NCBI GenBank assembly: GCA_020846935.1 | Contig: JADLCY010000001.1 | Span: 806,001-870,000, forward strand | Reading direction: 5' to 3' | DNA length: 64,000 bases | DNA from: Gemmatimonadaceae bacterium | Lineage (GTDB): Bacteria; Gemmatimonadota; Gemmatimonadetes; Gemmatimonadales; Gemmatimonadaceae | Shown here: positions 34,754 through 48,816 of the stretch, in pieces | Layout of the letters: every line of letters starts with the position of its first letter | Position numbering within the stretch: position 1 is the first letter of the stretch | Notes under the pieces: generated by a model | Databases searched by the model: none | The model's input: only the letters and a program-made list of their open reading frames with translations | What the model was told of the DNA's origin: nothing | Position numbers and translations under genes: made by a program

Positions 34754-36025
34754 CTACCTGGCGCCCGCGAGTGCGACGACGGTCAGCAGCACCCACTGCG
34801 GCCCCTTCCAGCCATCCGCGCCATCGTCGTAGGACTCGGTCAGCGAATGGGCACCGCGCCCCATCCCACCGCCGTCCATGGTGATGGCGGCAATGCCAAG
34901 GCTCATGGGGATATTGGCGTCGGTGCTGGACGCACTGGTCGGCGCCGTGAAGCCGATCGCCCTGGCCGCCGCCAGCGCCGTGCGCGCAATGTGCGACGCG
35001 TCGTTCACGGGCGCGGCCGGCCGCACGCCCATGTCGGTCCATTTCACGGTGACCTTCGCGCTGGACTGCGGCGCACGAGCGTTCTCTTCCTCGACCGCCT
35101 GCTGCACGGCCGCTTTGAGCCTTGCATCGATCGCCGCGAGTTCCTGCGGTGACTCCGAGCGCAGGTCGACCTCCATCGCGCCGAGCGGCGAGATGGTGTT
35201 CACCGACGTGCCACCGCTGACGATCCCCACGTTGAACGTCGTCTTTGGGTTGGCGGGCGGCTTGAAGTCGCTGATCTTCGCGATCGCGCGGCCCATGGCG
35301 TGGATCGGCGCCGGCATCCCAAAGGCGCCAAAGCTGTGGCCACCGGGGTTCTGGAACTCGACCTTGTATCGGTGACTGCCCACCGCGCCGGTAGTGAGGC
35401 CAAGTCCGGTGCCATCGACCGAGATGAAGAAGTCGATCTTCTCCGGCGGCGCCTTGAACAGTGCCCGGACGCCGCGGAGATTCCCGGGGCCTTCTTCGCC
35501 CACGGTCGCGACAAACAGGATCTTGCCGGGGAAGGGGACCTTCGCCTGGTCAACCGCCCGCGCCACCGCAAGCAACGTGGCGAGCCCGCGGCAATCGTCG
35601 CCGATCCCCGGCCCGCGAAACAACGTCCCTTCGCGCGTCACCTTCACGTTCGTCCCCTCCGGAAACACGGTGTCGAGGTGCCCGGAGACCACCACGGTCG
35701 GCCCGGACCCCGAGCCCGCGCGCTCGGCGATCACGTTGCCTTCGCCGTCGATGCGAACGTTTGTCAGGTTGAGCGACCGGAACCGTCGGACCATCTCCGC
35801 GGCCCGCACCTGCTCCTTGAATGGCGGCGCCGGGATTTCGCAGATCGAGACCTGCTGTTCGAGGGTCCAGGCATTGTCGCGCCTGACGATGTCCAGGGCC
35901 GCGGCGACGGCAGGGTTCGCGGTCGGCACGCTCGCCGTCTGGGCGCCGAGTGTCGGAGCGACGGCCGCAATGGCGGCCAACAATGCGCAGCGGGTCATGG
36001 TGACGAGTCGATTGCGTGAAGGCAT
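34754..36025 (-). CDS. Exported M20-family metallopeptidase
   Basis: This 423-residue protein has a signal peptide (MTRCALLAAIAAVAPTLGAQ from residue 10). The M20 zinc-ligand motifs are present: VVVSGHLDTVFPEG (His and Asp), GIGDDCRGLATLLAVARA (bridging Asp), VATVGEEGPGNLRG (catalytic Glu pair) and, late, GGGMGRGAHSLTESYDD with the His ligand. The middle dimerisation domain (SVDGTGLGLTTGAVGSHRYK, GTSVNTISPLGAMEVDLRS) is complete, as in tripeptidase/PepT-like members. It would hydrolyse small peptides in the periplasm. It starts three bases after the stop of the asparaginase gene, so they form an operon. Confidence 0.9.
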   Translation of the reverse strand: MPSRNRLVTMTRCALLAAIAAVAPTLGAQTASVPTANPAVAAALDIVRRDNAWTLEQQVSICEIPAPPFKEQVRAAEMVRRFRSLNLTNVRIDGEGNVIAERAGSGSGPTVVVSGHLDTVFPEGTNVKVTREGTLFRGPGIGDDCRGLATLLAVARAVDQAKVPFPGKILFVATVGEEGPGNLRGVRALFKAPPEKIDFFISVDGTGLGLTTGAVGSHRYKVEFQNPGGHSFGAFGMPAPIHAMGRAIAKISDFKPPANPKTTFNVGIVSGGTSVNTISPLGAMEVDLRSESPQELAAIDARLKAAVQQAVEEENARAPQSSAKVTVKWTDMGVRPAAPVNDASHIARTALAAARAIGFTAPTSASSTDANIPMSLGIAAITMDGGGMGRGAHSLTESYDDGADGWKGPQWVLLTVVALAGAR

Positions 36026-36028
36026 GGG

Positions 36029-37084
36029 TCAGCGGAGCTCCATGAGGCGGGCAATGTCGCCGGCGCGCAGGCCGGTGGCGAGGCCGAGCATGACGAGCAG
36101 GCGCGCCTTCTGCGGGTTGAGGTCGGCGGTCCCGATCATCGCGCCTTCACCGGCGCGAGCCGCGGACTCTCGCGGCCCACCGACGCCTACGCGTCCCGAG
36201 CCGGTGCGATTGGAGATGGCGACCACGACGCCGGCATCGCGTGCACGATTGAGCGCGCGCCCCATGGACGGCGTGCTGCCGCCGCGGCCGACACCGGCGA
36301 CCACGAGTCCGCGCGCTCCCGCCGCGACGGCGGCGTCCACCAGCACCGAGTCGGTACCGATCGCCGCGTAGACAATGTCTACCCGCGGAAAGTCGGTGAG
36401 CTTGCTGAGATCGATCGCGGCCCGACGGCACATGCTCCCGACCTCGGGTGCCGGGCGGTGAAAGACCACCACGTCGGGATCGGCGAGACCGAGGACGCCG
36501 GCGTCAGGCGCGGTGAAGGCATTGAGGCGCGTGGTGTTCGACTTGGTCACGTCACGCGCCGCAAAGACCTCGTCGTTCATGAGGACCATCGTGCCGCGCC
36601 CGCGCGCCGCCGGCGCCACGGCGACGCGCACTGCATTGAGCAGGTTGGCCGGGCCATCGGCGCCCACGGCGCTGGCCTGGCGCATGGCGCCCGTCACGAT
36701 GATGGGTGAACAGCCGCCAACGGTCAGCGAGAGGAAATACGCCGTCTCCTCCATGGTGTCGGTGCCGTGCGTGATCACGAAGCCGGCGGGCGCATCCGGT
36801 CCCGACTGCAGCGCGGTGATACGGCGCGCGAGGTCGCGCCACATCTCCTGCGTGATCGATCCGGACACGACGTTGCTGAACTGCTCGACACTGACGCGTG
36901 CCAATCCCTTGAGCTGGGGAATCGCGTCGACCAGTTCTTCGCCAGTGCGGCGTGCGTCGTTGCCGAGGTTGGAGATCGTACCACCCGTGGCGAGAACGTG
37001 AACCCGCGGCAGCGTCTGGGCACCCAGGGGTGCGGTGAACGCCAGCGTGAGCATGGCATACGTCGCGAAGAATCGAGCGGTCAT
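36029..37084 (-). CDS. Exported L-asparaginase (type II-like)
   Basis: A 351-residue protein with a signal peptide (about 1-22, LTLAFTAPLGAQ). The two asparaginase active-site signatures are present: VHVLATGGTISN (nucleophile Thr) and FVITHGTDTMEETAYFL (Thr-Asp pair), with a YAAIGTDSVLVDAAVAAG-type C-terminal domain. It hydrolyses L-asparagine, and possibly glutamine, to the acid and ammonia in the periplasm. With the M20 peptidase immediately downstream it suggests periplasmic peptide and amide catabolism. The final residues form an ARLLVMLGLATGL helix, common to type II enzymes. Confidence 0.9.
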   Translation of the reverse strand: MTARFFATYAMLTLAFTAPLGAQTLPRVHVLATGGTISNLGNDARRTGEELVDAIPQLKGLARVSVEQFSNVVSGSITQEMWRDLARRITALQSGPDAPAGFVITHGTDTMEETAYFLSLTVGGCSPIIVTGAMRQASAVGADGPANLLNAVRVAVAPAARGRGTMVLMNDEVFAARDVTKSNTTRLNAFTAPDAGVLGLADPDVVVFHRPAPEVGSMCRRAAIDLSKLTDFPRVDIVYAAIGTDSVLVDAAVAAGARGLVVAGVGRGGSTPSMGRALNRARDAGVVVAISNRTGSGRVGVGGPRESAARAGEGAMIGTADLNPQKARLLVMLGLATGLRAGDIARLMELR

Positions 37085-37215
37085 CAGCAGGACACCTGGC
37101 TCCTGACATTGGCAGGAGCGGCGAGAGGGAAGCCACGCTCCGGCGCAGGCCGGCGCGATGAATGAGTTGCGTCCGGCCCTGGTGAGCGCTCCAGGCGCCG
37201 CGAGCCTGTCACTGC

Positions 37216-38079
37216 CTAACGCGCCATCGCCGACGACCGGTACAGCCGGCCCGCCAGCGCCTCGTAGAGCTGGCGGGAGATCGGCCCTGGCGTGCCAGTG
37301 CCGACCCGCGAACCGTCGATCTCCACCACCGGCATGACGTCGGTCGTGGTGCCAGTGACGAAAAACTCCTCCAGTCGCGGAATGTCGGCCACGTGAAAGG
37401 CACGCTCGGCGACAGGAATGCCCAGCTCGCGCGCCAGCTCCAGCACCACGTCCCGCGTCACACCACCGAGGATGTAGTTGGACGCCGGGTAGGTGCGCAA
37501 TTCGCCGTTGATCACCCCGAAGGCGTTCGTGTGCGAACCTTCGGTGATCGCACTCCCGCGCACGAAGATCGCCTCGAAGACCCCGTGGTCCACGGCATAC
37601 TGCTTGGCCAGCACGGCGGGAATCAGGTTCACGGTCTTGATGTCGCAGCGGGACCAGCGGATGTCGGGGTACGTCACCACCGAAACACCAGTCGCCCGCT
37701 TGTCGTTCGGGACCGTGAACTTTGCCGCGGAGAGAAACACGGTGCAGCGGGTGCCAGCGGGAGGAAAGTGGTGGGTGCGCGGTGCGGCGCCGCGCGTGAT
37801 CTGCAGGTAGATCGTCCCTTCCCCCTCCTCGAGCCCGTTCTCGGCGATGAGTCGACGCGAGATGTTCTCGATGTCGGCGAGCGACTCCACCGGGTCAAGC
37901 TGAAGGTCGGCGAGGCCCCGGGCGAGGCGCGTCAGGTGGCGTCCGGATTCGAACAATTCACCGTTGACGACACGGGTGACTTCGTAGACGCCGTCGCCGA
38001 AGATGAAGCCGCGATCGTCGATCGAGAGCTTCGCCTCTTCGCGAGGCATGTAGGAGCCGTTCAGGTAAATGATGGGCAT
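37216..38079 (-). CDS. Class IV PLP aminotransferase, D-amino-acid transaminase type
   Basis: A 287-residue fold-type IV aminotransferase. MPIIYLNGSYMPREEAKLSI and DRGFIFGDGVYEV are typical of D-amino acid/branched-chain aminotransferases. The PLP lysine is Lys148 in CDIKTVNLIP and the phosphate-binding Glu180 is in ITEGSHTNAFGVING; VNLIPAVLAKQYA and TGTTTDVMPVVEIDG complete the signature. The DIKTxNLL/I and SxxTN patterns favour a D-alanine transaminase (dat) over BCAT, so it likely interconverts D-alanine and D-glutamate for cell-wall use or catabolism. It shares the strand of the asparaginase gene but is separated by 130 bp. Confidence 0.85.
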   Translation of the reverse strand: MPIIYLNGSYMPREEAKLSIDDRGFIFGDGVYEVTRVVNGELFESGRHLTRLARGLADLQLDPVESLADIENISRRLIAENGLEEGEGTIYLQITRGAAPRTHHFPPAGTRCTVFLSAAKFTVPNDKRATGVSVVTYPDIRWSRCDIKTVNLIPAVLAKQYAVDHGVFEAIFVRGSAITEGSHTNAFGVINGELRTYPASNYILGGVTRDVVLELARELGIPVAERAFHVADIPRLEEFFVTGTTTDVMPVVEIDGSRVGTGTPGPISRQLYEALAGRLYRSSAMAR

Positions 38080-38339: not shown

Positions 38340-39014
38340 CTATCCCTCCGCTGGCCAGGCGGGGAATTGAAGGACGGTCGCCGTTCGGACACTTCCCGCG
38401 GGCCCGAAGTCCCGCAAGGGATCCGGGGTCGTTGATCCCGACTCCGTCACATGATAGAGCTCGAGCCCGGCGTTCCGCAGCACGGTGCGCTCTTCCGGTG
38501 ACTCTGCGCCGCGCACGACCATGGGCACACGGTTGTACTCGGCAAACGCAGCCAGTCGAAGCACGGAATGCAGCTGCTCGGGAATCACGTGGACGCCGCG
38601 CACGTGGTCCGGGCCCAGCCGGAGGTAAAGCGGCCGCAGCGCCCAGAGCAACTCGAGCGCCGAGGTACCCCATTCTCCGGCGATCTCGACGATCGTGCCG
38701 AAGCCCAGGCCGTGGCAGCGCTCCATGGCGACTCGCAGGAACCGAGCATCGAACGATGCCGCATGGACGACGAAACCGACGAGTACGTGTGAACGCGAGT
38801 ATCGCAACGCGCCGGCCACGGGCAATACGGTGTCTTCGAACGTCGCCACGTCGGGCGCCGCGCCATAGGCGACAAACGACGAGGAGACCAGCCGCTCAGG
38901 CGGGTAGTACGTAAGTTCGACGCGCTCGCGGGCGACCGGAGCCGGCGACCGCCAGATCGCCTCGCGACGCACCAGCACACGCGCCGACGGCACCCGGACG
39001 TTGCTCGCCGCCAT
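38340..39014 (-). CDS. EAL-like domain protein lacking catalytic residues
   Basis: A 224-residue cytoplasmic protein; the ATG at 39014 is preferred, but a GTG at 39041 that overlaps the receiver-like gene is possible. The order of segments follows an EAL phosphodiesterase barrel: a helix ERCHGLGFGTIVEIAGEWG where active enzymes read D-D-F-G, then ELLWALRPLYLRLGPDHVRG where they read K-I-D, then AEYNRVPMVVRGAESPEER where they read E-G-V-E-T, and LRNAGLELYH before the closing. The metal- and c-di-GMP-binding acidic residues are replaced, so catalysis is unlikely; it may bind a nucleotide or a protein. It ends a run of small regulatory genes that includes the GTPase and the OmpA-like protein. 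Confidence 0.62.
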   Translation of the reverse strand: MAASNVRVPSARVLVRREAIWRSPAPVARERVELTYYPPERLVSSSFVAYGAAPDVATFEDTVLPVAGALRYSRSHVLVGFVVHAASFDARFLRVAMERCHGLGFGTIVEIAGEWGTSALELLWALRPLYLRLGPDHVRGVHVIPEQLHSVLRLAAFAEYNRVPMVVRGAESPEERTVLRNAGLELYHVTESGSTTPDPLRDFGPAGSVRTATVLQFPAWPAEG

Positions 39015-39019
39015 GCGCA

Positions 39020-39391
39020 CTACCCGAGGAGTGAGGCGCACAGCACGGCTCCGAGGTGCATGATCGGCAGGTCGGCGCCGAGCACGAGGTCGGCCTCCGG
39101 CCAGCGCACGATTCGCGAAGGGGACGACTGCACGAGGGCCACGGTTCGCGGCCGCTCCGCTTCACGGTGCGCGTCGTCGATGAGCGCGACGAGGGGATCG
39201 GGATCGTCGAAGCCGAGATCGAAGGCAGCGACGACCCCACGATACGGCACCTGACCGAGCATCGCGCGGGCCTCGGCCACGTCGGGAACGTGATCGACGA
39301 CAAAGCCGCGGAACGTCAGATACCCAGTCAATACGGAAAGGCGGGGTGTCTCTCGTCCGGTGACGAGCACCCGCCGGGATCCAGCAGTCAC
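39020..39391 (-). CDS. Divergent receiver-like domain protein
   Basis: A 123-residue protein starting, by my choice, at the GTG at 39391, which has an AGGG seven bases upstream; earlier in-frame GTG or TTG codons are alternatives. The fold order looks like a response-regulator receiver (RRVLVTGRETPRLSVLTG, GFVVDHVPDVAEARAML, VAAFDLGFDDPDPLVALIDD, RTVALVQSSP, LVLGADLPIMHLGAVL). A possible phospho-acceptor Asp sits in AAFDLGF, but the acidic pair at the start and the conserved late Lys are absent. It probably acts as a protein-binding module. It ends just before the EAL-like start at 39014, in the same transcription direction. Confidence 0.5.
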   Translation of the reverse strand: MTAGSRRVLVTGRETPRLSVLTGYLTFRGFVVDHVPDVAEARAMLGQVPYRGVVAAFDLGFDDPDPLVALIDDAHREAERPRTVALVQSSPSRIVRWPEADLVLGADLPIMHLGAVLCASLLG

Positions 39392-39598
39392 GTAGCGCCC
39401 TGGCGTGGGAAACTTCGACACCAGAGTCAAAGCAACGCGCGTTCCATGCCGGTGCCTGTGTCGGCGAGCCGGAGCAAGTCGCTTTCCCGGAACAGGTTGG
39501 GCGCTCGCAGCGAGCGTCGGCGCTGCCGGAACCAAGGAGGAACGGTGGCGCCGATTCTGGAACGCGGATTGGCGCGTCCCGATTCCGGATGCGGCTGG

Positions 39599-40102
39599 CT
39601 AGGGCGCCTGCATCCGACGAACGAGGGCGGCAAACGCCGCTTCGACGTTGGCGCCGGTCCGTGCCGAGGTCGTGAACACGTCAACGCCCGCCGGCCCGCG
39701 GGCGCCCTGATCGGCGGCGGTGACCGCCCACTCGTCGGCAAGGTCCGACTTGTTCACGAACAGGAGGGAGGGGACGCTGCCGACCGCATCTTCGGCACCA
39801 CGCTGGATGGCGAGCGCACGATCGAGTGTGTCGGGACGCGTACCGTCGGCGACATAGATGAGGCCAGCAGCACCGCGCAGGTAGGTGGTCCGCACCTTCT
39901 GCAGGTCGTCTTCGCCCTGAAGATCCCACAGCAGCAGGCTCACCTGGCCGCCTTCGTGGTCGACCAGCTTGCGGTCGATCTTGACACCGATCGTCGCCTG
40001 GTACTTCTCGCTGAACATGCTCTCGACGTAGCGCCTGACGAGGCTCGTCTTTCCGACGCCGGTGGCGCCCAACATGCAGACCTTGCGCTGAATGACCGTC
40101 AC
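39599..40102 (-). CDS. Rab/Ras-like small GTPase
   Basis: The 167-residue protein begins at a GTG at 40102 that overlaps the upstream OmpA-like stop (GTGA), so translation is coupled. The GTPase motifs are in order: G1 CMLGATGVGKTSLVRRYV (residues 9-26), G2 Thr37 in YQATIGVKID, G3 LLLWDLQGEDDL (57-67), G4 FVNKSDL (115-121) and G5 TTSARTG. The residue after the G3 Gly is Glu rather than the Ras Gln, so hydrolysis may depend on a partner. There is no C-terminal lipidation cysteine. The Rab-like spacing matches bacterial small GTPases often linked to scaffold or Roadblock proteins. Confidence 0.85.
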   Translation of the reverse strand: MTVIQRKVCMLGATGVGKTSLVRRYVESMFSEKYQATIGVKIDRKLVDHEGGQVSLLLWDLQGEDDLQKVRTTYLRGAAGLIYVADGTRPDTLDRALAIQRGAEDAVGSVPSLLFVNKSDLADEWAVTAADQGARGPAGVDVFTTSARTGANVEAAFAALVRRMQAP

Positions 40103-41874
40103 TGACTGCTCGGCGAGATGGCTCGAATGGCGATGCGGAGCGACGCGGATCGTCGGCCCGGGGTGGAGTCGGGACTCGGCGTCATGACCGGGGCGGGCAC
40201 TCCGCTTGCCATCAGCATGTTGCGGACCACGCGAGCGCGCGCGATCCGGAGCGGCGCATTCGACGTTTCGGTGCCCACGGTGTCGGTCGTGGCCCTGATC
40301 TCCACGCCGACCGTTCGCCCCACACTCGCCGCATCGCGCAGCAGGTCGCGCAGGGCGACCGACATGGAGTCCACGACCCGCCGAAACTCGCCGCGAGGGA
40401 TGGCCGATCCGAGGCCGAAGGAGACGGTGAAGGTTTCCGCACGATCTGCCGCGGCACGGAGCGCGACCTCGGCCGAGTCGCGCACCGCGGTGAAGTCGGT
40501 CGCCGATACGCCGCCCAGCGCCAGTGCGAGTCCGCGCGCACGCGCCAGCCATGCCGCCGACGCCACACCGGTGGCCGAGAGCGTGTCGCCGTGCATCACC
40601 AATTGCACCGACGATGGCGGCGCCAGCGCCGCACCCGCGCGGCGCAAGACGAACTCGGGGCGCAAGGCGATGTACGGCTCCCAGTGCATCGTGATCCTGG
40701 ACGAATCGAGGCCGGCGGCAAGGATGGCCTGCGCAGGATCGCGGGCCAGGGGATCGCGCAGGCCGGTGAGGACGTAGCGACCGGCTGTACGGCCCGTACT
40801 CCCGACCACCACACCGGGTTCCTGCCTCAGGGCATCGACGGCCTTCCCGAATCGACGGGACTCGAGCGCGCGCGGCGCGGCGCACCAACCGATGCCAAGC
40901 AGCAGGGCGCCGGCGAGCGCTGCGACCTTCCATCGCCCCGCTCCGGGAGCTCGCGTCGCCACCTGCGAGACGAGACAGGACTCGATGATGCCGTCGCGAA
41001 CGATGAATGCACGCCCCGAGGTCGCGAAGGCATCGAGGTCGGTCGCGTGCACACGCTGCACCTCTTCCACGGCCTGCTGGAGCGTTTCGCGCAGGGCGAG
41101 CGGGGCGTGGCCACGGATGACGGCGGCGAGCATCACGGCTGGGCCCTGCTCCACCCACACGGTCAGGTCTCCGAGCGCGAACGAATCGAGTCCCTCCTGC
41201 ACCGACATCTCGAACGTGTCGCGTGCGAAGTCACCAAGCGCGGTGAGCATGCCGGCGACCATCTCCGGAGGAAGCGCCTTCACACCGGGCGCGGAGACGT
41301 GAGTGACCAGCAGGCCCGTCACGCGATGCACCAGAAAGACCTGCTCGACGCGAAACCTGAGGGAGTGCCTGAGCACCACCTCGGCGAACGACTTCCCCGT
41401 CCGCATGGCCTCGATGCGCCAGCCGATGCCGCGCGGGGAGAACGAGTGCTCGAGCGTGGTGTTGATCGACTGAACGAGCTCGCCGAATGCCGAGGAGATC
41501 GCGCGGCGGATCGCCGGCCCGATGACGGGGAAGATCGCATCGACGACGGGCTGCGGGTCCCGGCGTACCGACGCCTTGATCGCCTCGCCGACCACCGGAC
41601 CCAGGGCCGCGCCGAGCGCGGGGTCCTTCGCGCGACGATGGATGGCGTCAGGGAGCGCGTCGCTCACCGCATCGAGGCCGAGCGATGGATCGTCGAGGCG
41701 ACGCTCGACTCTCGTCAGGCGGTCGCGCTCTGCCCCGATGAGCAACCTGGTCAGCTCGGCCCAGCGCTCGGCGGGCGTGGGCGACGCCCGATGGTCCGCG
41801 AGCTCACGCACCGCGGGATCGACGGGCCGCGGCGATCCCGCGGGAGGGTCCGATAGGCGGACGGGGTCGGCCAC
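40099..41874 (-). CDS. Inner-membrane protein with N-terminal Roadblock-like region and C-terminal OmpA domain
   Basis: A 591-residue protein (GTG start at 41874). The N-terminus is cytoplasmic and helical (about 60-160, DAIFPVIGPAIRRAISSAF, FGELVQSINTTLEHSFS, RIEAMRTGKSFAEVVLRHS). Residues about 175-275 (VEQVFLVHRVTGLLVTHVSA, then GDLTVWVEQGPAVMLAAVIR) have the strand-helix order of a Roadblock/longin fold. One membrane helix lies at 315-333 (WKVAALAGALLLGIGWC). Two BON-like stretches (about 340-470) and an OmpA C-terminal domain (about 480-590, with IRATTDTVGTETSNAPL) follow in the periplasm, so it could bind peptidoglycan. Similar proteins exist, from memory, in cyanobacteria. It overlaps the GTPase start, and a coupled role is likely. 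Confidence 0.75.
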   Translation of the reverse strand: MADPVRLSDPPAGSPRPVDPAVRELADHRASPTPAERWAELTRLLIGAERDRLTRVERRLDDPSLGLDAVSDALPDAIHRRAKDPALGAALGPVVGEAIKASVRRDPQPVVDAIFPVIGPAIRRAISSAFGELVQSINTTLEHSFSPRGIGWRIEAMRTGKSFAEVVLRHSLRFRVEQVFLVHRVTGLLVTHVSAPGVKALPPEMVAGMLTALGDFARDTFEMSVQEGLDSFALGDLTVWVEQGPAVMLAAVIRGHAPLALRETLQQAVEEVQRVHATDLDAFATSGRAFIVRDGIIESCLVSQVATRAPGAGRWKVAALAGALLLGIGWCAAPRALESRRFGKAVDALRQEPGVVVGSTGRTAGRYVLTGLRDPLARDPAQAILAAGLDSSRITMHWEPYIALRPEFVLRRAGAALAPPSSVQLVMHGDTLSATGVASAAWLARARGLALALGGVSATDFTAVRDSAEVALRAAADRAETFTVSFGLGSAIPRGEFRRVVDSMSVALRDLLRDAASVGRTVGVEIRATTDTVGTETSNAPLRIARARVVRNMLMASGVPAPVMTPSPDSTPGRRSASLRIAIRAISPSSQ

Positions 41875-41891
41875 GCGCGTTGCCGTGCGAC

Positions 41892-42455
41892 CTAACGAGC
41901 GTCGGGTCCGCCGGCCAGGCGCTGCGCGAACTCGGCGAACATGGCCGCGATCGTGCTGCGGTCCGCCTTTGCCGATCGCAGATCGAAGGCTTCACGACGC
42001 AGCGCGTCGGAGATCTCGTCGTGCCGACGAGCCGTCTCCTCGGCGAGTGCGCGGTGCGTGTCCTGCAGCTGGGCACGCAGGTCACGCTGGGCCTGCGCCG
42101 ACTGCTCGGCCAGGGCGGCCACGCGATCGGAGAGCTCGCGATTGAGGGCGCCGATGGCGTCCATCGCATCGCGCACGCCCTGGAGACGCTCGCGCTCTTC
42201 GCTCCGCAGGCTCGAGCTGAGCGCTTCGAGTTCGGCGCGGAGGTATTGCTCGGTGGCGAGCATTCGCCGGCCGAGGTCCTCACGCAGGTTGGTGGATTCG
42301 CGCCCGAGTCGCTCTTCGGTCGCCGCGAACCGGCGATCGTAGTCCCGCATCTGGGACCCAAAGAGGATGTCGCGGATCTTGTCGACGTTGCCCGTGTCGT
42401 TGGGGCCGCCTTCGGCGCCGTTGGCTTCGGCGTGGGTCCAGATGGGGTCGCTCAT
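41892..42455 (-). CDS. Coiled-coil protein of the OmpA/GTPase cassette
   Basis: A 187-residue cytoplasmic protein that is almost entirely coiled coil from residue 40 onward (FAATEERLGRESTNLREDL, LEALSSSLRSEERERLQGV, AEQSAQAQRDLRAQLQDTHR). The conserved opening, NVDKIRDILFGSQMRDYDR, is a distinctive sequence that I associate with a family found next to OmpA-like and small-GTPase genes in other phyla. No enzymatic motif is visible. The gene ends 17 bp before the OmpA-like start on the same strand, so it is the first gene of that unit and probably assembles with the other two products. Confidence 0.72.
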   Translation of the reverse strand: MSDPIWTHAEANGAEGGPNDTGNVDKIRDILFGSQMRDYDRRFAATEERLGRESTNLREDLGRRMLATEQYLRAELEALSSSLRSEERERLQGVRDAMDAIGALNRELSDRVAALAEQSAQAQRDLRAQLQDTHRALAEETARRHDEISDALRREAFDLRSAKADRSTIAAMFAEFAQRLAGGPDAR

Positions 42456-42487: not shown

Positions 42488-43870
42488 TCAGGAGGCGGGC
42501 CTGGCGACCGCGATGCGCATCGCCTTGAGTTTTTGGTACAGGGTCGAGCGCGGGACACCCAATCGCTGGGCGGCCACCTCCACGCGCCCGTTGACGAGCT
42601 CCAGCACGCGAATAATGTGGCGCCGCTGGAGTTCTTCCAGAGTCAGGTGGTCCTCTCCGCCGATGATGGCCGTCGTGCCGCCGGCCGGGGTCAGCGCCGC
42701 GGGCGCATCAAATGTGAGGTCCGCGGCGCGTATAGACCCGCGCGCGGAGAGGAGCACGGCGCGTTCGAGCACATTGCGCAGTTCGCGCACGTTGCCCGGC
42801 CACGGGTGTCTGGCGAGAGCCTCGTCGGCCGAGGGTGTCAGTTCGATCGAAGCGCGGCCCAATTCCCCGGCCAGCCGTTCGAGGAGTCGGCGCGCGAGGA
42901 TCGGAATGTCTTCCTTTCGTTCCCGCAGCGGGGGCACGTGGAGCGGGATGGTGCTGATGCGGAAGTAGAGGTCTCCGCGGAACTTGCCGGCGCCAACGAG
43001 GTTGGGCAGATCCTGGTGCGTGGCAGCCACGAGCCGCACGTCCACCTGGCGGTCCTTGACCGCACCCACCCGCCGGAAGACCTGGTCTTCGAGGACCTTG
43101 AGGAGCTTGGGTTGGAGCGAAAGTTCGAGGTCGCCGATTTCGTCCAGAAACAGCGTGCCGCGGTGCGCCAGTTCGACCAGGCCCATTTTGGCGGTGACTG
43201 CTCCCGTGAACGCCCCGCGTTCAAAGCCAAAGAGCTCACTTTCGAGCAGTTCGCGGGGGAGACTAGCGCAGTTCAGGTCGACGAAGGCTTCGTCGGCGCG
43301 GGCCCCATGCGCGTGGAGCCATCGCGTGAGCACACCCTTTCCGGCCCCGGTTTCGCCGAGAATCAGGACTGGGCGGTCCGTAGCCGCGATGCGTTCCGCC
43401 TGTTCGCGGAGTCGGTGGATTGCCGCCGACTCTCCGACGAACGGGTCCGTTGTGGCCCTTTGCTGGCGCACAGCTCTCGCCATACTGCGCTGGCGCTCGC
43501 GCTGACGGTCTAGTGCGCGATCGAGCACGACCGCCAATGCCGGCAACGATACCGGCTTGGTCAGGAAGTCGTCCGCACCCTGGCGTATGGCCTCGACCGC
43601 CAGCTCGACCGACCCGTGGCCAGTGAGAACCAGAAACGGCACGACGGCGCTGAGCGCGCGGATGCGGGGAAGCAGATCCAGCGCCGTCCCATCGGGAAGC
43701 CGGTAGTCGCTCAGCACCAGGGCGGGCCGCTCGCGCTCGAAGGCGCGCTCGGCGTCGGCGCACGTCGCGGCTTCGGTGACCGCGTAGCCGTTGGTGCCCA
43801 GAAAATCACGCAGGGCGAAGCGGATCGCCGGGTCGTCTTCGACGAGGAGCAGGCGCCTGGTTGAGTTCAC
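42488..43870 (-). CDS. NtrC-family sigma-54-dependent response regulator
   Basis: This 460-residue regulator has the three standard modules. The receiver (1-120) has the phospho-acceptor Asp55 in LSDYRLPDG, and Thr83 and Lys105. The AAA+ domain has Walker A GETGAGKG (172-179), the sigma-54-contacting GAFTGA (219-224), the FLDEIGDLELSLQPKLLKVL segment and a sensor region. The C-terminal Fis-type helix-turn-helix (VEVAAQRLGVPRSTLYQKL) closes it. It would activate sigma-54 promoters when phosphorylated by the kinase gene whose stop overlaps its GTG start. No flanking target is obvious. Confidence 0.93.
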   Translation of the reverse strand: MNSTRRLLLVEDDPAIRFALRDFLGTNGYAVTEAATCADAERAFERERPALVLSDYRLPDGTALDLLPRIRALSAVVPFLVLTGHGSVELAVEAIRQGADDFLTKPVSLPALAVVLDRALDRQRERQRSMARAVRQQRATTDPFVGESAAIHRLREQAERIAATDRPVLILGETGAGKGVLTRWLHAHGARADEAFVDLNCASLPRELLESELFGFERGAFTGAVTAKMGLVELAHRGTLFLDEIGDLELSLQPKLLKVLEDQVFRRVGAVKDRQVDVRLVAATHQDLPNLVGAGKFRGDLYFRISTIPLHVPPLRERKEDIPILARRLLERLAGELGRASIELTPSADEALARHPWPGNVRELRNVLERAVLLSARGSIRAADLTFDAPAALTPAGGTTAIIGGEDHLTLEELQRRHIIRVLELVNGRVEVAAQRLGVPRSTLYQKLKAMRIAVARPAS

Positions 43871-44970
43871 TTCGGTCGGGAAGAGGTGGTCGGAAGCCGG
43901 ACGCGCACCACGGCACCGACGACCCGGCCGTCGGAACTGCGTTGGTTTTCGGCACTGACAGTACCCTGATGATCGTGCACCGTGCGGTGCACCAACGCCA
44001 GCCCGAGGCCAGTGCCTCCCGGTCGGCGACTATAGAATGGCTCGAAGACGCTCGCGATCGACGCCTCGTCGAACCCCGGGCCCTGATCGATCACGCTGAA
44101 TTCCACGTCGGCGTCGACCATGTGGGCCTCGAGCGTGACCGTGCTGCCCGCGGGGGCGTGTTGAATGGCGTTCGTGACGAGGTTCTGGAGTGCCTGCACG
44201 AATCGAAACAGGTCCACCGCGACCCAGGTCTCCGGCCGACACGAGCTGTGCGGCTCGACGGCGACGCGGGCCCGCTCGCCGATCGGCGAGCAGACCTCGG
44301 CAGTCGCGACGAGGACTTCGGTCACACGCACCGGACGAACCGCGAGCGCGGCCGGTCGGCCATAGTCGAGCAAGTCAGCCATGAGTGTGGACAGCCGCTC
44401 CACCTGGCTCGTGAGCAAAGGGGCGTAGCGCGCGAAGTGCTCGTTGTCCGCGAGGCGTTGGCGGAGCGCGTCGATGGCCGAGGAGAGCGCGAAGAGCGGA
44501 TTGCGCACCTCGTGAGCGACACCTGAGACCAGCTCGCCCATGCGACTGAACGTCTCCGTTCGCTGCAGGGCATCCTGTCGTGCGAGCTGACCCAGAAACT
44601 CGCGTTCACGATCGCGGGCCGCTTCGCGTTCGGTGATGTCGTGCAGGATGAGGTGGACGAGCTGCTGGTCGGGGCCGGCAAACGGTGTCCCGTACACTTC
44701 GGTGCGTCGGACCTCGCCGGAGGCGTGGCGTTGCGCGAGGCCCACGAGGTGGACCCCGACAGCGGCAGCGACTTCGAGGGCATCGCGCAGGCCGCCGGGG
44801 TCTTCGACGCCTAACGACGAGAGGGTCGTGCCCGTCAGCCCGTCGGGGGTGACGCCGTAGAAGTCCGCCGCCGCCCGGTTCGCCTCCACGATCCGGCCGT
44901 CGCGCCCGTCGACGACGAGTTGCGGTGCGGTACTGTCGTCAAAGAGTCGACGATATCTGTCCGTGCCCAC
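43867..44970 (-). CDS. PAS-domain sensor histidine kinase (NtrB-like)
   Basis: I take the GTG at 44970 (AGGA eight bases upstream) over longer frames, giving 367 residues. A PAS domain covers about 5-120 (DRYRRLFDDSTAPQLVVDG, NRAAADFYGVTPDGL, LHDITEREAARDRERE). The HisKA region has GVAHEVRNPLFALSSAID, and the ATPase domain is intact with NLVTNAIQHA (N-box), VIDQGPGFDE (G1) and GTGLGLALVHRTV (G2). It therefore looks fully active, unlike the hybrid at 33064. It overlaps the NtrC-type regulator by 4 bp (GTGA) and has no membrane helix, so it senses a cytoplasmic signal. Confidence 0.9.
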   Translation of the reverse strand: MGTDRYRRLFDDSTAPQLVVDGRDGRIVEANRAAADFYGVTPDGLTGTTLSSLGVEDPGGLRDALEVAAAVGVHLVGLAQRHASGEVRRTEVYGTPFAGPDQQLVHLILHDITEREAARDREREFLGQLARQDALQRTETFSRMGELVSGVAHEVRNPLFALSSAIDALRQRLADNEHFARYAPLLTSQVERLSTLMADLLDYGRPAALAVRPVRVTEVLVATAEVCSPIGERARVAVEPHSSCRPETWVAVDLFRFVQALQNLVTNAIQHAPAGSTVTLEAHMVDADVEFSVIDQGPGFDEASIASVFEPFYSRRPGGTGLGLALVHRTVHDHQGTVSAENQRSSDGRVVGAVVRVRLPTTSSRPK

Positions 44971-45215
44971 CCACGTCCTCGCGCCTGGTGACCGGCAGGA
45001 ATAGAACAGGCGCCGCCGACGCATGGATAGGGCGTGGGCCCCGACGTGCGAACCCCCATCCCGGAAGGCGGCTGTGCGGTGCTCGGCGTCGTGCCGGGGC
45101 ACACACGACAACCCGCGACGGCCTTTCCCCTGCGCACGCTCGCGTCACTGTCACGCGGGGATGCTGCGGGCGATTCACGCTCGCCTGCGGGCCTGCCCAG
45201 AGGTCGGATGCCGGG

Positions 45216-46073
45216 TCACCGCCTGGTGAGCAGTTCTTCGATCAGATCCACGGCGCGCGGGTCTCCGGATTGCCCGAGCCAGAACAGGGCCTTGCGGCGG
45301 ATCTCCGGGTCACGGTTCGTACGCACGACATTGATCAGGGACGGGACCCCTTCGTCCCGCGGTCGCTGCGACAGCGCGAAGACCGCCTGCTCCCGCACGT
45401 CACGATTGAGCGCTGCTTCGCCAACGAGCTCCGTGAGTCCGGCCGTGGCCGGGCCCTCGGCGGCCTGACCGAGCCAAAACACGGCCTGCTTGCGGGTCGA
45501 GGATGGCCGCGTGTCGTTGCGTGCTATCCGAAGCAGGTCGCCGTTGACGTCAACGCTGTCGATGAGCGTGAGAGGGAAGATCGCGCGCTCCGAGACGCGT
45601 CCCCCCTCGCCCTGGACGATGGCGAGCAGGATCTGCGACGTCTCGCGGGCGCCAACCGCTCCGAGGTCCGCGGCAGCAGCCGACGCACGCCAGCGGCCGC
45701 CGATGTAGAACCGCACGTCTGTGATGGCGCCTTCGTTCTTGTCGATCACGACGCGGCCGGGGCCGGAGTCGCATTCGACGTCATACTCCACGTCGCGTCT
45801 CTCGTCTGTATCCAACGTCGTGCGGGTCCGCGTGCGACTGACTCCGGTGCGCCAGACGTTCTGGCCCTGCCCGCAGACGCCGGGGCGGAGGGTAAAGGTG
45901 AAACGCACCTGACCATCGCGGACGGCGGCCAGCCGCGTGGCGGCCGACTGCGCGCGAACCGGCGTGGCACCGGCGCCCACGACCACGACGGCGAGCATTG
46001 CGGTGGCCGCGCAACGGACGCGCGCTCTGGCGTCAGCGAAACCCGGCGATGCGTCTCTCATGGAGATGATCAT
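45216..46073 (-). CDS. Exported HEAT-repeat protein, second copy
   Basis: A 285-residue protein with a signal peptide (about 20-43, TAMLAVVVVGAGATPVRAQ). Residues 45-165 form a domain with C-rich segments (RPGVCGQGQNVWRTG, VEYDVECDSGPGRVV, VRFYIGGRWRAS). Residues about 170-285 are HEAT-type helical repeats (TRKQAVFWLGQAAEGPAT, REQAVFALSQRPRDEGVPSL, RRKALFWLGQSGDPRAVDLI). The repeats are close relatives of those in the upstream protein. It overlaps that gene's stop by 4 bp. Likely it forms a periplasmic binding scaffold together with its neighbour; no enzymatic residues are visible. Confidence 0.75.
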   Translation of the reverse strand: MIISMRDASPGFADARARVRCAATAMLAVVVVGAGATPVRAQSAATRLAAVRDGQVRFTFTLRPGVCGQGQNVWRTGVSRTRTRTTLDTDERRDVEYDVECDSGPGRVVIDKNEGAITDVRFYIGGRWRASAAAADLGAVGARETSQILLAIVQGEGGRVSERAIFPLTLIDSVDVNGDLLRIARNDTRPSSTRKQAVFWLGQAAEGPATAGLTELVGEAALNRDVREQAVFALSQRPRDEGVPSLINVVRTNRDPEIRRKALFWLGQSGDPRAVDLIEELLTRR

Positions 46074-47602
46074 TTGTTGAGGAGCTCCTCCAGCAGCTTG
46101 ACGACGCGCGGATCCCGTGACTGCCCGAGCCAGAAGATCGCCTTGGATCGCATCGCCTTGTCGCGATCGTTGCGGGCGATATCGAAGATCTTGTCCACGG
46201 CCGCGGGGTCACGGCGCTGCGCCAGGACAAAGATCACCTGCTCACGCATTTCCTGGTTGGTCACGCGATCGTACATCGCCGCGATGGCCGCGACGTTGAG
46301 CGAGCGGTTCTGGCCGGCCCAGAACAGGGCCTTCTTGCGCATCTCCACGTCGGCCTTTTCGTCGGTCGCGAGGTCGAGCATGAACTTGTCGGTAGCGGGC
46401 GAACGCATCTGCGACAGCGAAAAGATGATCTTGTCGCGGATGTCCTCGTTGGACGTGCGGGCGAACAGCCCGATCAGCAGCTCCGCGTTTTCGCCCGAGC
46501 GCTGCTGGCCGAGCCAGAAGATGGCCTGTTCGCGCAGCCGCGTCGGCGCACTGTCACGCAGCGCGATGTCGCGCAGGATCGAGGCGGCGCGGGTGCTCTT
46601 CTGCTGCGACAGGGCAAAGATCGCCTTCTCCAGCACGGCCTCGTCCTGCTCGGTCCGCAGCAGGTTCTCGAGAATGGAGGTGGCGCGCTCGTCGCGAATC
46701 TGGCCGAGCCAGAAGACGGCCTGCGAGCGTACCTCGCGATCCGGGTCGTTTCGTACGGCGTTGAGCAGCATGTCGGCCGCCCGCGGGTCGCGTTTCTGCG
46801 CGATCAGAAAAATCGCCTTGCGACGCAGCGTCACCGAGCAGCGGTCGCGACGCTGCAGGGTCTTCTCCAGGAGCGGGAGCGCGCGATCGGCGTCCATCTG
46901 CAAGAGCGCGTTCAGCGCGGCAAGGCGCTCGTCGTCGTCTTCGTCGGGACAGCCCTGCGGCACCGGTGCGCTCCCGCGGTCCCCGCGCTCGGGCCGTTCG
47001 GGGCGCTCGACGCGGTCGGGCCGTTCCGGACGCTCCGGGCGCTCGGCGTTGGCCGCGGCCGCGATCTCGGCGGCGCAGCGCTCGTTGCCCTGTCGCGCGA
47101 GTTCGCCGCACACGCGGATGCGCAGATCGCGCGCGTCACCACTGATCGCCGCTCGCGGATGTTCGCTCGTGAGCGTGGTCAACGAAGCGAGCGCGTTCTG
47201 CAGGTTGCCGGAGCCGCCGGCGCGGTACATGGCGTACGCGTGCCAGTACAGCGCGTCAGCGGCGATCCGCGCCCGTGGATCGCGTTCCCGCAACTGCTGA
47301 AAGAGCGAGGCGGCGCGACCAAAGTCGCCACGGTTGAGCGCCTGACGCCCCAGGCGATACAGCGAGTCTGAGGCCTGGTCGCCACTCGACCAGCGTCGCC
47401 GAGCCAGGAGATCGGCATCGGTCCACATCGCCTCCTCCGCCTCAAACGCCCCGGGGTTCATCAACCCCAACTGTGTGCTGCCGCCGTCCACCGGCCGGGC
47501 AGCCGACGCGGGTGCCGGGGACGCCTGTCCGGCAAGGGGTGCCGCGCCCAGCGCGGCGAACCCGACAACGAAGGTGAATCGAAGGAAACGGCTCGAGGTC
47601 AT
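46070..47602 (-). CDS. Exported HEAT-repeat protein, first copy
   Basis: A 510-residue protein starting at the ATG at 47602, with GGAG six bases upstream. A signal peptide (about 1-28, FAALGAAPLAGQ) precedes a TPR-like part (DSLYRLGRQALNRGDFGRAASL, about 75-115) and a Glu/Arg/Pro-rich linker of repeated ERPERPERP-type units (about 190-210). From about 240 to the end there are nine or so HEAT repeats of 31-37 residues with the core REQAVFWLGQ-x-R-D-x-RA. Such arrays usually bind proteins. The array is followed without a break by the related second protein. Confidence 0.78.
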   Translation of the reverse strand: MTSSRFLRFTFVVGFAALGAAPLAGQASPAPASAARPVDGGSTQLGLMNPGAFEAEEAMWTDADLLARRRWSSGDQASDSLYRLGRQALNRGDFGRAASLFQQLRERDPRARIAADALYWHAYAMYRAGGSGNLQNALASLTTLTSEHPRAAISGDARDLRIRVCGELARQGNERCAAEIAAAANAERPERPERPDRVERPERPERGDRGSAPVPQGCPDEDDDERLAALNALLQMDADRALPLLEKTLQRRDRCSVTLRRKAIFLIAQKRDPRAADMLLNAVRNDPDREVRSQAVFWLGQIRDERATSILENLLRTEQDEAVLEKAIFALSQQKSTRAASILRDIALRDSAPTRLREQAIFWLGQQRSGENAELLIGLFARTSNEDIRDKIIFSLSQMRSPATDKFMLDLATDEKADVEMRKKALFWAGQNRSLNVAAIAAMYDRVTNQEMREQVIFVLAQRRDPAAVDKIFDIARNDRDKAMRSKAIFWLGQSRDPRVVKLLEELLNK

Positions 47603-47614
47603 GGCGATCTCCAA

Positions 47615-48244
47615 TCAGGTACCGCTGTAGGTGGACGGCACCGCGGTGCGAATCCGGGTGAGCAGCTCGCCGCGCTGCAGCGCGCGCTCGACGAGCTGTC
47701 GATCGTCAGGCGTGGTAGCGGCGGGAAGCTGGACGATCTGGGCGAGCGTGAGTTCGAGATCCTGCAGGAGTCGCCGGCGCAGGGCGTCCGTTGCGGCCGG
47801 TGAGTCGATCAGCAGTCGGGTGTCGGCCAGCAGGTCTCGCGCCCACGCCTGAAGAGCCGGGTCGATGTCGTCCGTGGCCGAGCGCATGGTCGTCAGCAGA
47901 GCATCGGCGCGGCCGAGATGCTGCTCAGCTGCCCTGGTGTAGAGTGCGTTGTCGGTGCGCGCTGTCGAGACCGCACTGGATGCATCTGGCGTGGTCGATC
48001 CACCGGCGCGGCTCCAGCGCCCGACTTGAAAGCTCACCACGACGAGTACGGCCGCGGCCGCAGCGATCGAGAGCCAGCGGATCGGCGTGACGCGGCGTCG
48101 ATGCGCCATACCAACGGTCGCGTCCGCGTCGAGTGATGCGCGAATGGCTTCCCACATGGGCTCGCGCGGCACCGTCTTCGGCGGCTCGTTGTACTCGCTT
48201 GCCCGCGCTGTCAGCCAGGTATCGAACTTTTCGTCGTCGGTCAT
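47615..48244 (-). CDS. Putative anti-sigma factor with one membrane helix
   Basis: A 209-residue protein starting at the ATG at 48244, which overlaps the ECF sigma gene's stop (ATGA). Residues 1-55 are cytoplasmic (KFDTWLTARASEYNEPP). One membrane helix is at about 56-76 (WLSIAAAAAVLVVVSFQV). The periplasmic part is helical (DALLTTMRSATDDIDPALQ, DALRRRLLQDLELTLAQI). It lacks the zinc-binding HxxxCxxC motif of ZAS anti-sigmas. The position right after an ECF sigma gene, in a coupled unit, is the main reason for the call. Confidence 0.65.
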   Translation of the reverse strand: MTDDEKFDTWLTARASEYNEPPKTVPREPMWEAIRASLDADATVGMAHRRRVTPIRWLSIAAAAAVLVVVSFQVGRWSRAGGSTTPDASSAVSTARTDNALYTRAAEQHLGRADALLTTMRSATDDIDPALQAWARDLLADTRLLIDSPAATDALRRRLLQDLELTLAQIVQLPAATTPDDRQLVERALQRGELLTRIRTAVPSTYSGT

Positions 48245-48816
48245 GCGGACCACGCTCCTGCGAAATCGGCCAGGACGTCGCGCAGCCGTGCGCGCGCCCG
48301 GAACAACTGTGCCTTGCTCGTCCCCGGCTGGATGCCGAGCGACTGTGCGATCTCCTCGTGCGTGAAGCCTTCCACGTCGTGCATCACGAACACCGTGCGG
48401 TACCCGGGTGGAAGGCCATCGATCGCGGCGTGGAGCCGTTGCCGGAGGTCGGGATCTGCCCGACGCGGCATGCTACCGAGCATCTCGGCATCTTCGAGCG
48501 GCAGTTCGCGCGACCGGAGTCGCTTGATCTTTCGCAGCCCGTTGAGTGCCACCGAAACGGTGATCGCGTGCAGCCAGGTTCCGAACGCCGAGTCGCCCCG
48601 AAAGTCCGAGAGCCGCTGGAAGGCCCGAACGAACGCGTCCTGCACGAAGTCCCTCGCCAGATCGTCGTCTCCGGCCAGCCGAAAGGCCAGCCGATACACG
48701 CGTTCGACGTGCGCGTCGTACAGCGCACGCTGCGACTCCGGATCACCCGCGGCCGCCCGAGCAATGAGCTCGCGTTCGTTCACACGTTCGAAGGGCCGAG
48801 GGAGGTTCGGGACCAC
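48241..48816 (-). CDS. ECF-family RNA polymerase sigma factor
   Basis: The gene encodes 191 residues (GTG start at 48816) with both ECF domains. Region 2 reads ELIARAAAGDPESQRALYD, VYRLAFRLAGDDDLARDFVQD and AFVRAFQRLSDFRGDSAFG, followed by WLHAITVSVALNGLRKIKR. Region 4 reads LPPGYRTVFVMHDVEGFTHE and EIAQSLGIQPGTSKAQLFRA. The linker contains a long DAEMLGSMPRRADPDLRQ stretch. It probably controls its own operon of a putative anti-sigma and two exported HEAT proteins in response to an envelope signal. Confidence 0.92.
   Translation of the reverse strand: MVPNLPRPFERVNERELIARAAAGDPESQRALYDAHVERVYRLAFRLAGDDDLARDFVQDAFVRAFQRLSDFRGDSAFGTWLHAITVSVALNGLRKIKRLRSRELPLEDAEMLGSMPRRADPDLRQRLHAAIDGLPPGYRTVFVMHDVEGFTHEEIAQSLGIQPGTSKAQLFRARARLRDVLADFAGAWSA

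Follow-up and report, generated by a model that had tools for sequence, protein, structure and literature searches.

What would control a Rab-like small GTPase that is encoded, in a bacterium, next to a membrane protein with a putative hold on the cell wall? This question is raised by a gene cluster on the minus strand of a 64,000-nucleotide stretch of DNA (the window) from a Gemmatimonadaceae bacterium (GenBank assembly GCA_020846935.1, contig JADLCY010000001.1, positions 806,001 to 870,000). An original prediction, made from the letters alone, had described there a five-gene cassette coding for a coiled-coil protein, a membrane protein with an OmpA domain, a small GTPase, a receiver-like protein and an EAL-like protein, and all five open reading frames (ORFs) are found on that strand at the predicted positions. 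Its further remark, that no assigned function was known to it for this combination, overlooked the work of Wuichet and Sogaard-Andersen, who in 2014 described the first three genes, together with an output gene, as the Group 1 Rup neighbourhoods (PMC4316618). Judged by its motifs and its neighbourhood, the window locus is a member of this class. The 2014 survey called the membrane-protein domain unknown, noted the missing Gln of the GTPase and proposed a membrane signalling complex; as of that year no Rup GTPase had been characterised experimentally, and MglB-homologue partners were not predicted (PMC4316618). Here we propose, with a probability of roughly 0.58, that the locus encodes a Group 1 Rup signalling module whose Rab-like GTPase is controlled by the wall-anchored membrane protein. 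The gene set was already described, and the longin/roadblock identity that our structural model suggests for the unknown domain is apparently the new addition; a literature search, with most subscription journals outside its coverage, returned no report of a longin domain in Rup partners, of bacterial longins or of later Rup work.

The GTPase and its two constant neighbours

The GTPase gene (39599-40102, 167 residues) begins at a GTG within the sequence GTGA and overlaps the membrane-protein gene (40099-41874, 591 residues, also starting with GTG) by 4 bases, exactly as had been predicted. Its product matches the Pfam Ras family (E=2e-28), and its nearest PDB sequence is Rab2A (E=6e-21), with Rab1, Sec4 and Rab8 also among the nearest. 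Rup GTPases have G motifs strikingly similar to those of the eukaryotic Ras superfamily. The window protein carries the motifs GATGVGKT, T37, DLQGED, NKSD and SAR. Among 75 sequences of the family, motifs G1, G2, G4 and G5 are intact, with G10, G15, K16, N116, K117, D119, S145 and A146 kept in 75/75, and the switch residue Thr35 is a Thr in 72 and a Ser in 3. The catalytic Gln61 of Ras is missing from all 75 and mostly replaced by Glu, its place being occupied by Glu64 in the window protein. Intact nucleotide-binding motifs combined with the loss of Gln61 match the stated hallmark of Group 1 Rup GTPases. The positions of Ras Gly12 and Gly13 are Phe in 58 and Ala in 54 of the 75 sequences, respectively; the window GTPase has Thr and Gly there, the same as Rab2.

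The third core gene (41892-42455, 187 residues) encodes the coiled-coil protein, which contains NVDKIRDILFGSQMRDYDR. It bears an N-terminal signature, VDKIRDILFGSQMRDYDRRF, whose family form is [LVI]DKIRDILFGxQMRxxExRFxxLE, and a C-terminal signature near KADRSTIAAMFAEFAQRL; the family is kept across phyla. We considered the ILFGxQ segment as a general donor of the missing Gln and rejected it, several relatives having other residues at that place. The N-terminus also resembles that of the membrane protein, DKIRDILFGxQ in the former aligning in register with ELRxLLxGPE in the latter. An unselected comparison of the two N-terminal profiles gave an hhalign score of 27.7 (E 0.002, probability 14%), against 18.6 for the reversed profile and 16.2 for the best of 15 shuffles, which is suggestive only; the two proteins perhaps share a docking segment. 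A comparison of motifs preselected by regular expression was discarded as circular.

When 84,980 species genomes were scanned once with the alignment of the cytoplasmic part of the membrane protein, 185 relatives emerged, 80 loci of which were fetched. The coiled-coil, membrane-protein and GTPase genes are adjacent, in the same order and on the same strand, in 62 of these 80 loci, which bears out the conserved adjacency expected of the three core genes. These loci span about 12 phyla: Gemmatimonadota, Acidobacteriota, Cyanobacteriota, Verrucomicrobiota, Latescibacterota, Nitrospirota, Planctomycetota, Chloroflexota, Bacteroidota with Rhodothermota, Pseudomonadota, Desulfobacterota and Calditrichota. 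Phyla were read from record titles and, since most records are metagenome-assembled genomes, single assignments may be wrong. The other 18 loci mostly reflect contig ends, a differing call of an ORF start or a GTPase gene on the opposite strand, and neither partner was visible only in loci L066 and L071. Within the Gemmatimonadota the system is patchy, being found in 16 of 295 genomes. Among 60 relatives, the GTPase occurs in genomes with the membrane protein and, additionally, as the first gene of one contig, where a membrane-protein gene in front of it would be lost. The three proteins have correlated pairwise distances (r 0.70-0.84, against at most 0.23 after permutation), as would also be expected from shared descent alone. 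A search of viral contigs with the membrane protein gave no match.

Several loci depart from the common arrangement. The GTPase gene lies on the opposite strand, facing away from the coiled-coil and longin-OmpA genes and with more genes behind it, in loci of Rhodothermales, Bacteroidota and Desulfosarcinaceae (L074, L082, L088, L097). Two genomes carry a second GTPase without a longin-OmpA gene. In one (L103:7007-10346), the coiled-coil protein carries an N-terminal extension that by eye resembles a phosphotransfer (Hpt) domain but matches no Pfam family, and it is followed by the GTPase and then by a histidine kinase with both Gln-type domains described below; in the other (L102:8829-10188), the second GTPase is paired with a PP2C phosphatase only, with neither coiled-coil nor longin-OmpA gene. 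A Mesorhizobium plasmid has the same set, annotated in a row as hypothetical protein, OmpA protein, 'Rab family GTPase' and cyclase.

The membrane protein on both sides of the inner membrane

The membrane protein consists, in order, of a helical region, a domain modelled with a longin/roadblock fold, one transmembrane segment and a periplasmic part with a C-terminal OmpA domain. Its cytoplasmic part was modelled with AlphaFold2 from an alignment of 69 rows, with a mean predicted local distance difference test score (pLDDT) of 78.1; this score is about 80-97 over most of the longin-fold domain and lower at model residues 191-200 and from 271 on. In the model, residues 173-306 (model residues 144-277; 40957-41358) have the topology beta-beta-alpha-beta-beta-beta-alpha-alpha, which contains the longin/roadblock core beta-beta-alpha-beta-beta-beta-alpha. 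The corresponding elements are strands 146-154 and 160-165, helix 174-192, strands 202-205, 208-214 and 218-225, and helices 230-246 and 248-257 in model numbering.

Comparison of the model with PDB structures by VIA-align placed the longin domains of VAMP7 (Z 12.7, root-mean-square deviation 2.4, 117 residues aligned) and Ykt6 (12.7, 2.4, 120) first, followed by Sec22b (Z 12.3), Fuzzy-Inturned (12.0) and Thermus MglB (11.2, root-mean-square deviation 2.3, 106 aligned). Asgard Roadblock3 (Z 10.8), Ragulator (10.5), TRAPP subunits and Mon1-Ccz1 were matched as well, and Foldseek, run separately, recovered the same families with E values of about 1e-4. The 50 best structural matches are nearly all longin or roadblock domains, with the GTPase regulators TRAPP, Mon1-Ccz1, Fuzzy-Inturned, MglB and Ragulator among them. 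The model thus assigns residues 173-306 a longin/roadblock fold, close to the segment 175-275 singled out by the original prediction, and does so for a domain that is invisible to sequence profiles.

The region had been called Roadblock-like. The description agrees with the modelled fold, but by Z value and topology the modelled domain seems slightly nearer to longin than to the MglB-type roadblock, and it has no match to the Roadblock/LC7 family profile. Helix 248-257 is present, and alignments with longins reach about residue 277 of the model while that with MglB stops near 253; yet a short helix (134-142) precedes the sheet and the Z values differ little. Longins are present in Asgard archaea and are related to roadblock domains, the extra helix being C-terminal rather than N-terminal (PMC10933270; PMC3521125). 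If the domain is indeed slightly nearer to longin, platforms of Rab exchange factors would serve as an analogy no less well than MglB. The most conserved positions precede residue 173, in the helical part (Arg123 and Arg153 in 69/69 sequences, Asn138 in 68/69); Gln178, on the first strand of the longin-fold domain, is kept in 64/69.

Residues 315-333 (40876-40932) form the sole marked hydrophobic segment, with a Kyte-Doolittle maximum of 1.59, just under our cut-off of 1.6, and exactly one such segment is found in 70 of 80 homologues. The C-terminal region (residues 520-562; 40189-40317) is a putative peptidoglycan-binding domain of OmpA type. Weak as the OmpA match of the window protein is, the predicted periplasmic OmpA domain is borne out by its homologues, 54 of 57 of which match the family (best 3e-17), and by the residues of the motif TDxxG...NxxLSxxRA, which include the wall-contacting pair Asp531 (47/57) and Arg546 (57/57).

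Output, upstream and downstream genes

In other genomes, the gene directly after the GTPase usually encodes a signalling protein. Among 39 genes next to the trio elsewhere, there are 9 histidine kinases, 7 sigma-54 activators, 5 nucleotide cyclases, 4 HD proteins and 2 PP2C phosphatases; PP2C phosphatases stand at the output position in several Gemmatimonadota, and upstream hybrid kinases of Acidobacteriota overlap the coiled-coil gene. Two kinds of N-terminal domain were recognised in output proteins, one with an invariant QQxxN (17/17) and the other with an invariant QxxR (24/24), which fit the invariant Gln reported in 2014 (PMC4316618). Neither kind is found in the window genome (completeness 100%). 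Lacking a Rup output protein with the invariant Gln, this genome holds a variant, that is, the core of the module and not the full published set.

A histidine kinase/NtrC pair stands beside the window trio instead, a neighbourhood that the original prediction overlooked. The gene of the PAS-containing kinase (43867-45111, minus) overlaps by 4 bases that of an NtrC-type sigma-54 response regulator with receiver, AAA+ and Fis-type helix-turn-helix domains (42488-43870, minus), which ends 32 bp upstream of the coiled-coil gene. From kinase to GTPase, the successive gaps are -4, 32, 17 and -4 bp, the packed unit reaching upstream to 45111, and the NtrC gene overlaps the coiled-coil gene by 4 bases in the congener L087. 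The NtrC gene and the trio probably form one transcription unit; scans for terminators and promoters gave no signal above chance. A match of the window kinase to the output motif QxxR, namely QLAR, was rejected, this motif not being kept in the kinases of congeners.

The two genes behind the GTPase encode a pseudo-receiver (39020-39421, 133 residues) and a degenerate EAL-like protein (38340-39041, 233 residues). The receiver-like ORF spans 39020-39535, but its N-terminal extension has a third-position guanine-plus-cytosine content of 0.55 vs 0.78. Because this extension is without coding signal and homologues stop short of it, we moved the start to the GTG at 39421, which is probably the true one. 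The protein has a receiver fold in a structural model (Z 14.8 to RR468), but the phospho-acceptor Asp position, the acidic pair and the Lys are not kept in the four relatives compared. The EAL-like protein shows a weak match to the C-terminal half of the EAL profile only (E=1e-3) and does not have the catalytic motifs EAL, DDFG, KxD and ExVE, the corresponding sites reading by eye RLGPD and RGAE; a profile of EAL-like proteins matched no solved structure. The predicted lack of catalytic residues therefore holds for both proteins. Their codon composition and their divergence from a congener by codon position indicate that both genes are real.

The label of a five-gene cassette, in contrast, has to be narrowed: the trio is the core, and the last two genes lie outside it, behind a gap of 177 bp. 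They could even form a separate transcription unit whose function has nothing to do with the GTPase, which we rate at somewhat below even odds and which would be compatible with the module proposed here. In addition to the gap, the EAL-like gene was found in no other genus among 60 relatives and evolves faster (63% vs 78% identity to a congener), and the pseudo-receiver gene is present without it in another genus (L015/L098). Against such independence, the EAL-like gene stands beside the GTPase gene in 5/5 genomes of the genus, and the pseudo-receiver gene follows that of the GTPase wherever it is found.

Further out, the region upstream of the kinase (45216-48816, minus) is closely packed and encodes an ECF-type (extracytoplasmic function) sigma factor (48241-48816), a protein that matches no Pfam family and two proteins with HEAT/TPR repeats. 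The HEAT pair holds its place next to the trio in L013, L016 and L017, including the one locus of these (L016) that lacks the kinase/NtrC pair. After the EAL-like gene come, at 34754-38079 (minus), genes for a D-amino-acid transaminase-like protein, an asparaginase and an M20-type peptidase, which hold their place in L013, L014, L016 and L018; the whole block is consequently syntenic within the family.

A proposed wall-held regulator for a Rab-like GTPase

The genes and their order, the conserved core, the modelled fold, the motif of the OmpA domain, the intact nucleotide-binding motifs and the absence of the catalytic Gln were all computed here; from them we infer every binding event, which partner controls the other, what is sensed and where the signal leads. 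The OmpA domain would bind peptidoglycan in the periplasm, and some envelope state would be the signal, travelling through the single transmembrane helix to the cytoplasmic longin-fold domain. This domain would bind the GTPase and determine which nucleotide it carries, in the manner of the longin and roadblock proteins that act on Rab, Rag and MglA, and the coiled-coil protein may serve as a conserved adaptor between the GTPase-longin complex and the output. In this genus, the output would most likely be the adjacent histidine kinase and NtrC regulator, hence sigma-54 transcription, with the pseudo-receiver and the degenerate EAL protein as possible genus-level accessory parts. The window genome being without a Gln-bearing output domain, either hydrolysis would be slow or a core partner would supply the Gln; the donor may then be Gln178, the candidate with the highest conservation, which is a guess. 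Neither of the two outcomes that would have refuted the original prediction, a cytoplasmic part of another fold and core genes without conserved adjacency, was observed. A GTP switch coupled across the inner membrane to the cell wall, as it was predicted, is thus a fair reading of the fold model and of the adjacency in 62/80 loci, with the longin-fold domain as the putative binding partner of the GTPase.

Four points weigh against this proposal. Sequence profiles reveal no link between the domain and the longin or roadblock families: the Robl_LC7 profile (PF03259) reaches E=0.15 at best, in 2 of 69 sequences, and no notable Pfam, NCBIfam or PDB profile match was obtained with the cytoplasmic part, so that a proof of the fold by sequence only has failed. 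A longin fold is no proof of function, since longins also occur in SNAREs and in coat subunits that do not regulate GTPases. The OmpA match of the window protein (Pfam E=1e-4, 23 bits) is under the gathering score of 27.2 bits. Finally, in two further genera of the family (L015, L016) the trio stands without the histidine kinase/NtrC pair, which is consequently not a fixed partner. With regard to the first point, the Robl_LC7 profile matches two other genes of the window genome and hence works here. These encode ordinary Roadblock/LC7 proteins on other contigs (G000:C13:36634-36897 and G000:C11:244086-244352), which are possible partners of an MglA-type GTPase.

The system resembles several known ones. 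With the published Group 1 Rup systems it shares a GTPase without the Gln of G3, the coiled-coil protein and a protein combining an unknown domain, an inner-membrane helix and OmpA, while differing in that this domain is here modelled as longin/roadblock and in that the genome has, in place of an invariant-Gln output protein, the histidine kinase/NtrC and pseudo-receiver/EAL pairs. As in the MglA/MglB systems of Myxococcus and Thermus, a small GTPase is encoded with a protein of roadblock-type fold. However, MglB belongs to the Robl_LC7 family and is small and free, whereas the window domain misses that profile, seems slightly nearer to longin and sits in a wall-anchored membrane protein, and the window GTPase is Rab-like and not MglA-like. 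TRAPP, Mon1-Ccz1, Fuzzy-Inturned and the Asgard longins (PMC10933270) likewise set a longin fold beside a Rab-like GTPase, and the extra C-terminal helix of longins may have its counterpart in helix 248-257 of the model; unlike these platforms, the window set is bacterial, forms one tight operon and has a predicted peptidoglycan anchor, and no sequence-level relation to them was detected. The actinobacterial conservon (CvnA-D) also combines in one operon a small GTPase, a protein of roadblock fold and a kinase for signalling, but its GTPase is MglA-like and its roadblock protein free, and neither an OmpA anchor nor such a coiled-coil protein is described for it.

The likeness to MglB, which is among the top structural matches, leads to another explanation, in which the module would be positional and not sensory: the wall-anchored protein would mark a site of the envelope and the GTPase would recruit machinery there, like MglA/MglB in Myxococcus, the outputs being downstream users. 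An OmpA domain would suit a fixed anchor, and outputs that differ widely between lineages would suit a general positioning device. We nevertheless consider this explanation unlikely, as the close association with histidine kinases, sigma-54 activators, cyclases and PP2C phosphatases points to signalling and the loci read show no gene for motility or the cell pole linked to the trio. Still less probable is a mere scaffold, in which the longin-fold domain would be only a dimerisation or docking platform and a GTPase without Gln would stay GTP-bound as a structural part with no cycle: it would account for the loss of Gln61 in 75/75 sequences and for a genome without the output domain whose invariant Gln is proposed to act in trans, but not for the retention of all nucleotide-binding motifs, Thr35 included, and Gln178, Arg123 and Arg153 of the partner could themselves act in trans.

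Returning to the signalling module, the modelled longin/roadblock fold in the constant membrane neighbour gives the Rup GTPases a candidate regulator and a directly testable mechanism. We tentatively go one step further, while regarding this step as rather doubtful: the unknown domain in the membrane proteins of Group 1 Rup systems may be a true longin, acting as a wall-held exchange factor or GTPase-activating protein for a bacterial Rab-like GTPase, with the Gln supplied by a partner residue such as Gln178 and not only by the outputs. If this is true, the Rab-longin pairing, as a conserved operon, spans a dozen bacterial phyla and is not confined to Asgard archaea and eukaryotes. The fold assignment also bears on the origin of that pairing, and the module itself would connect the cell wall directly with a GTP switch.

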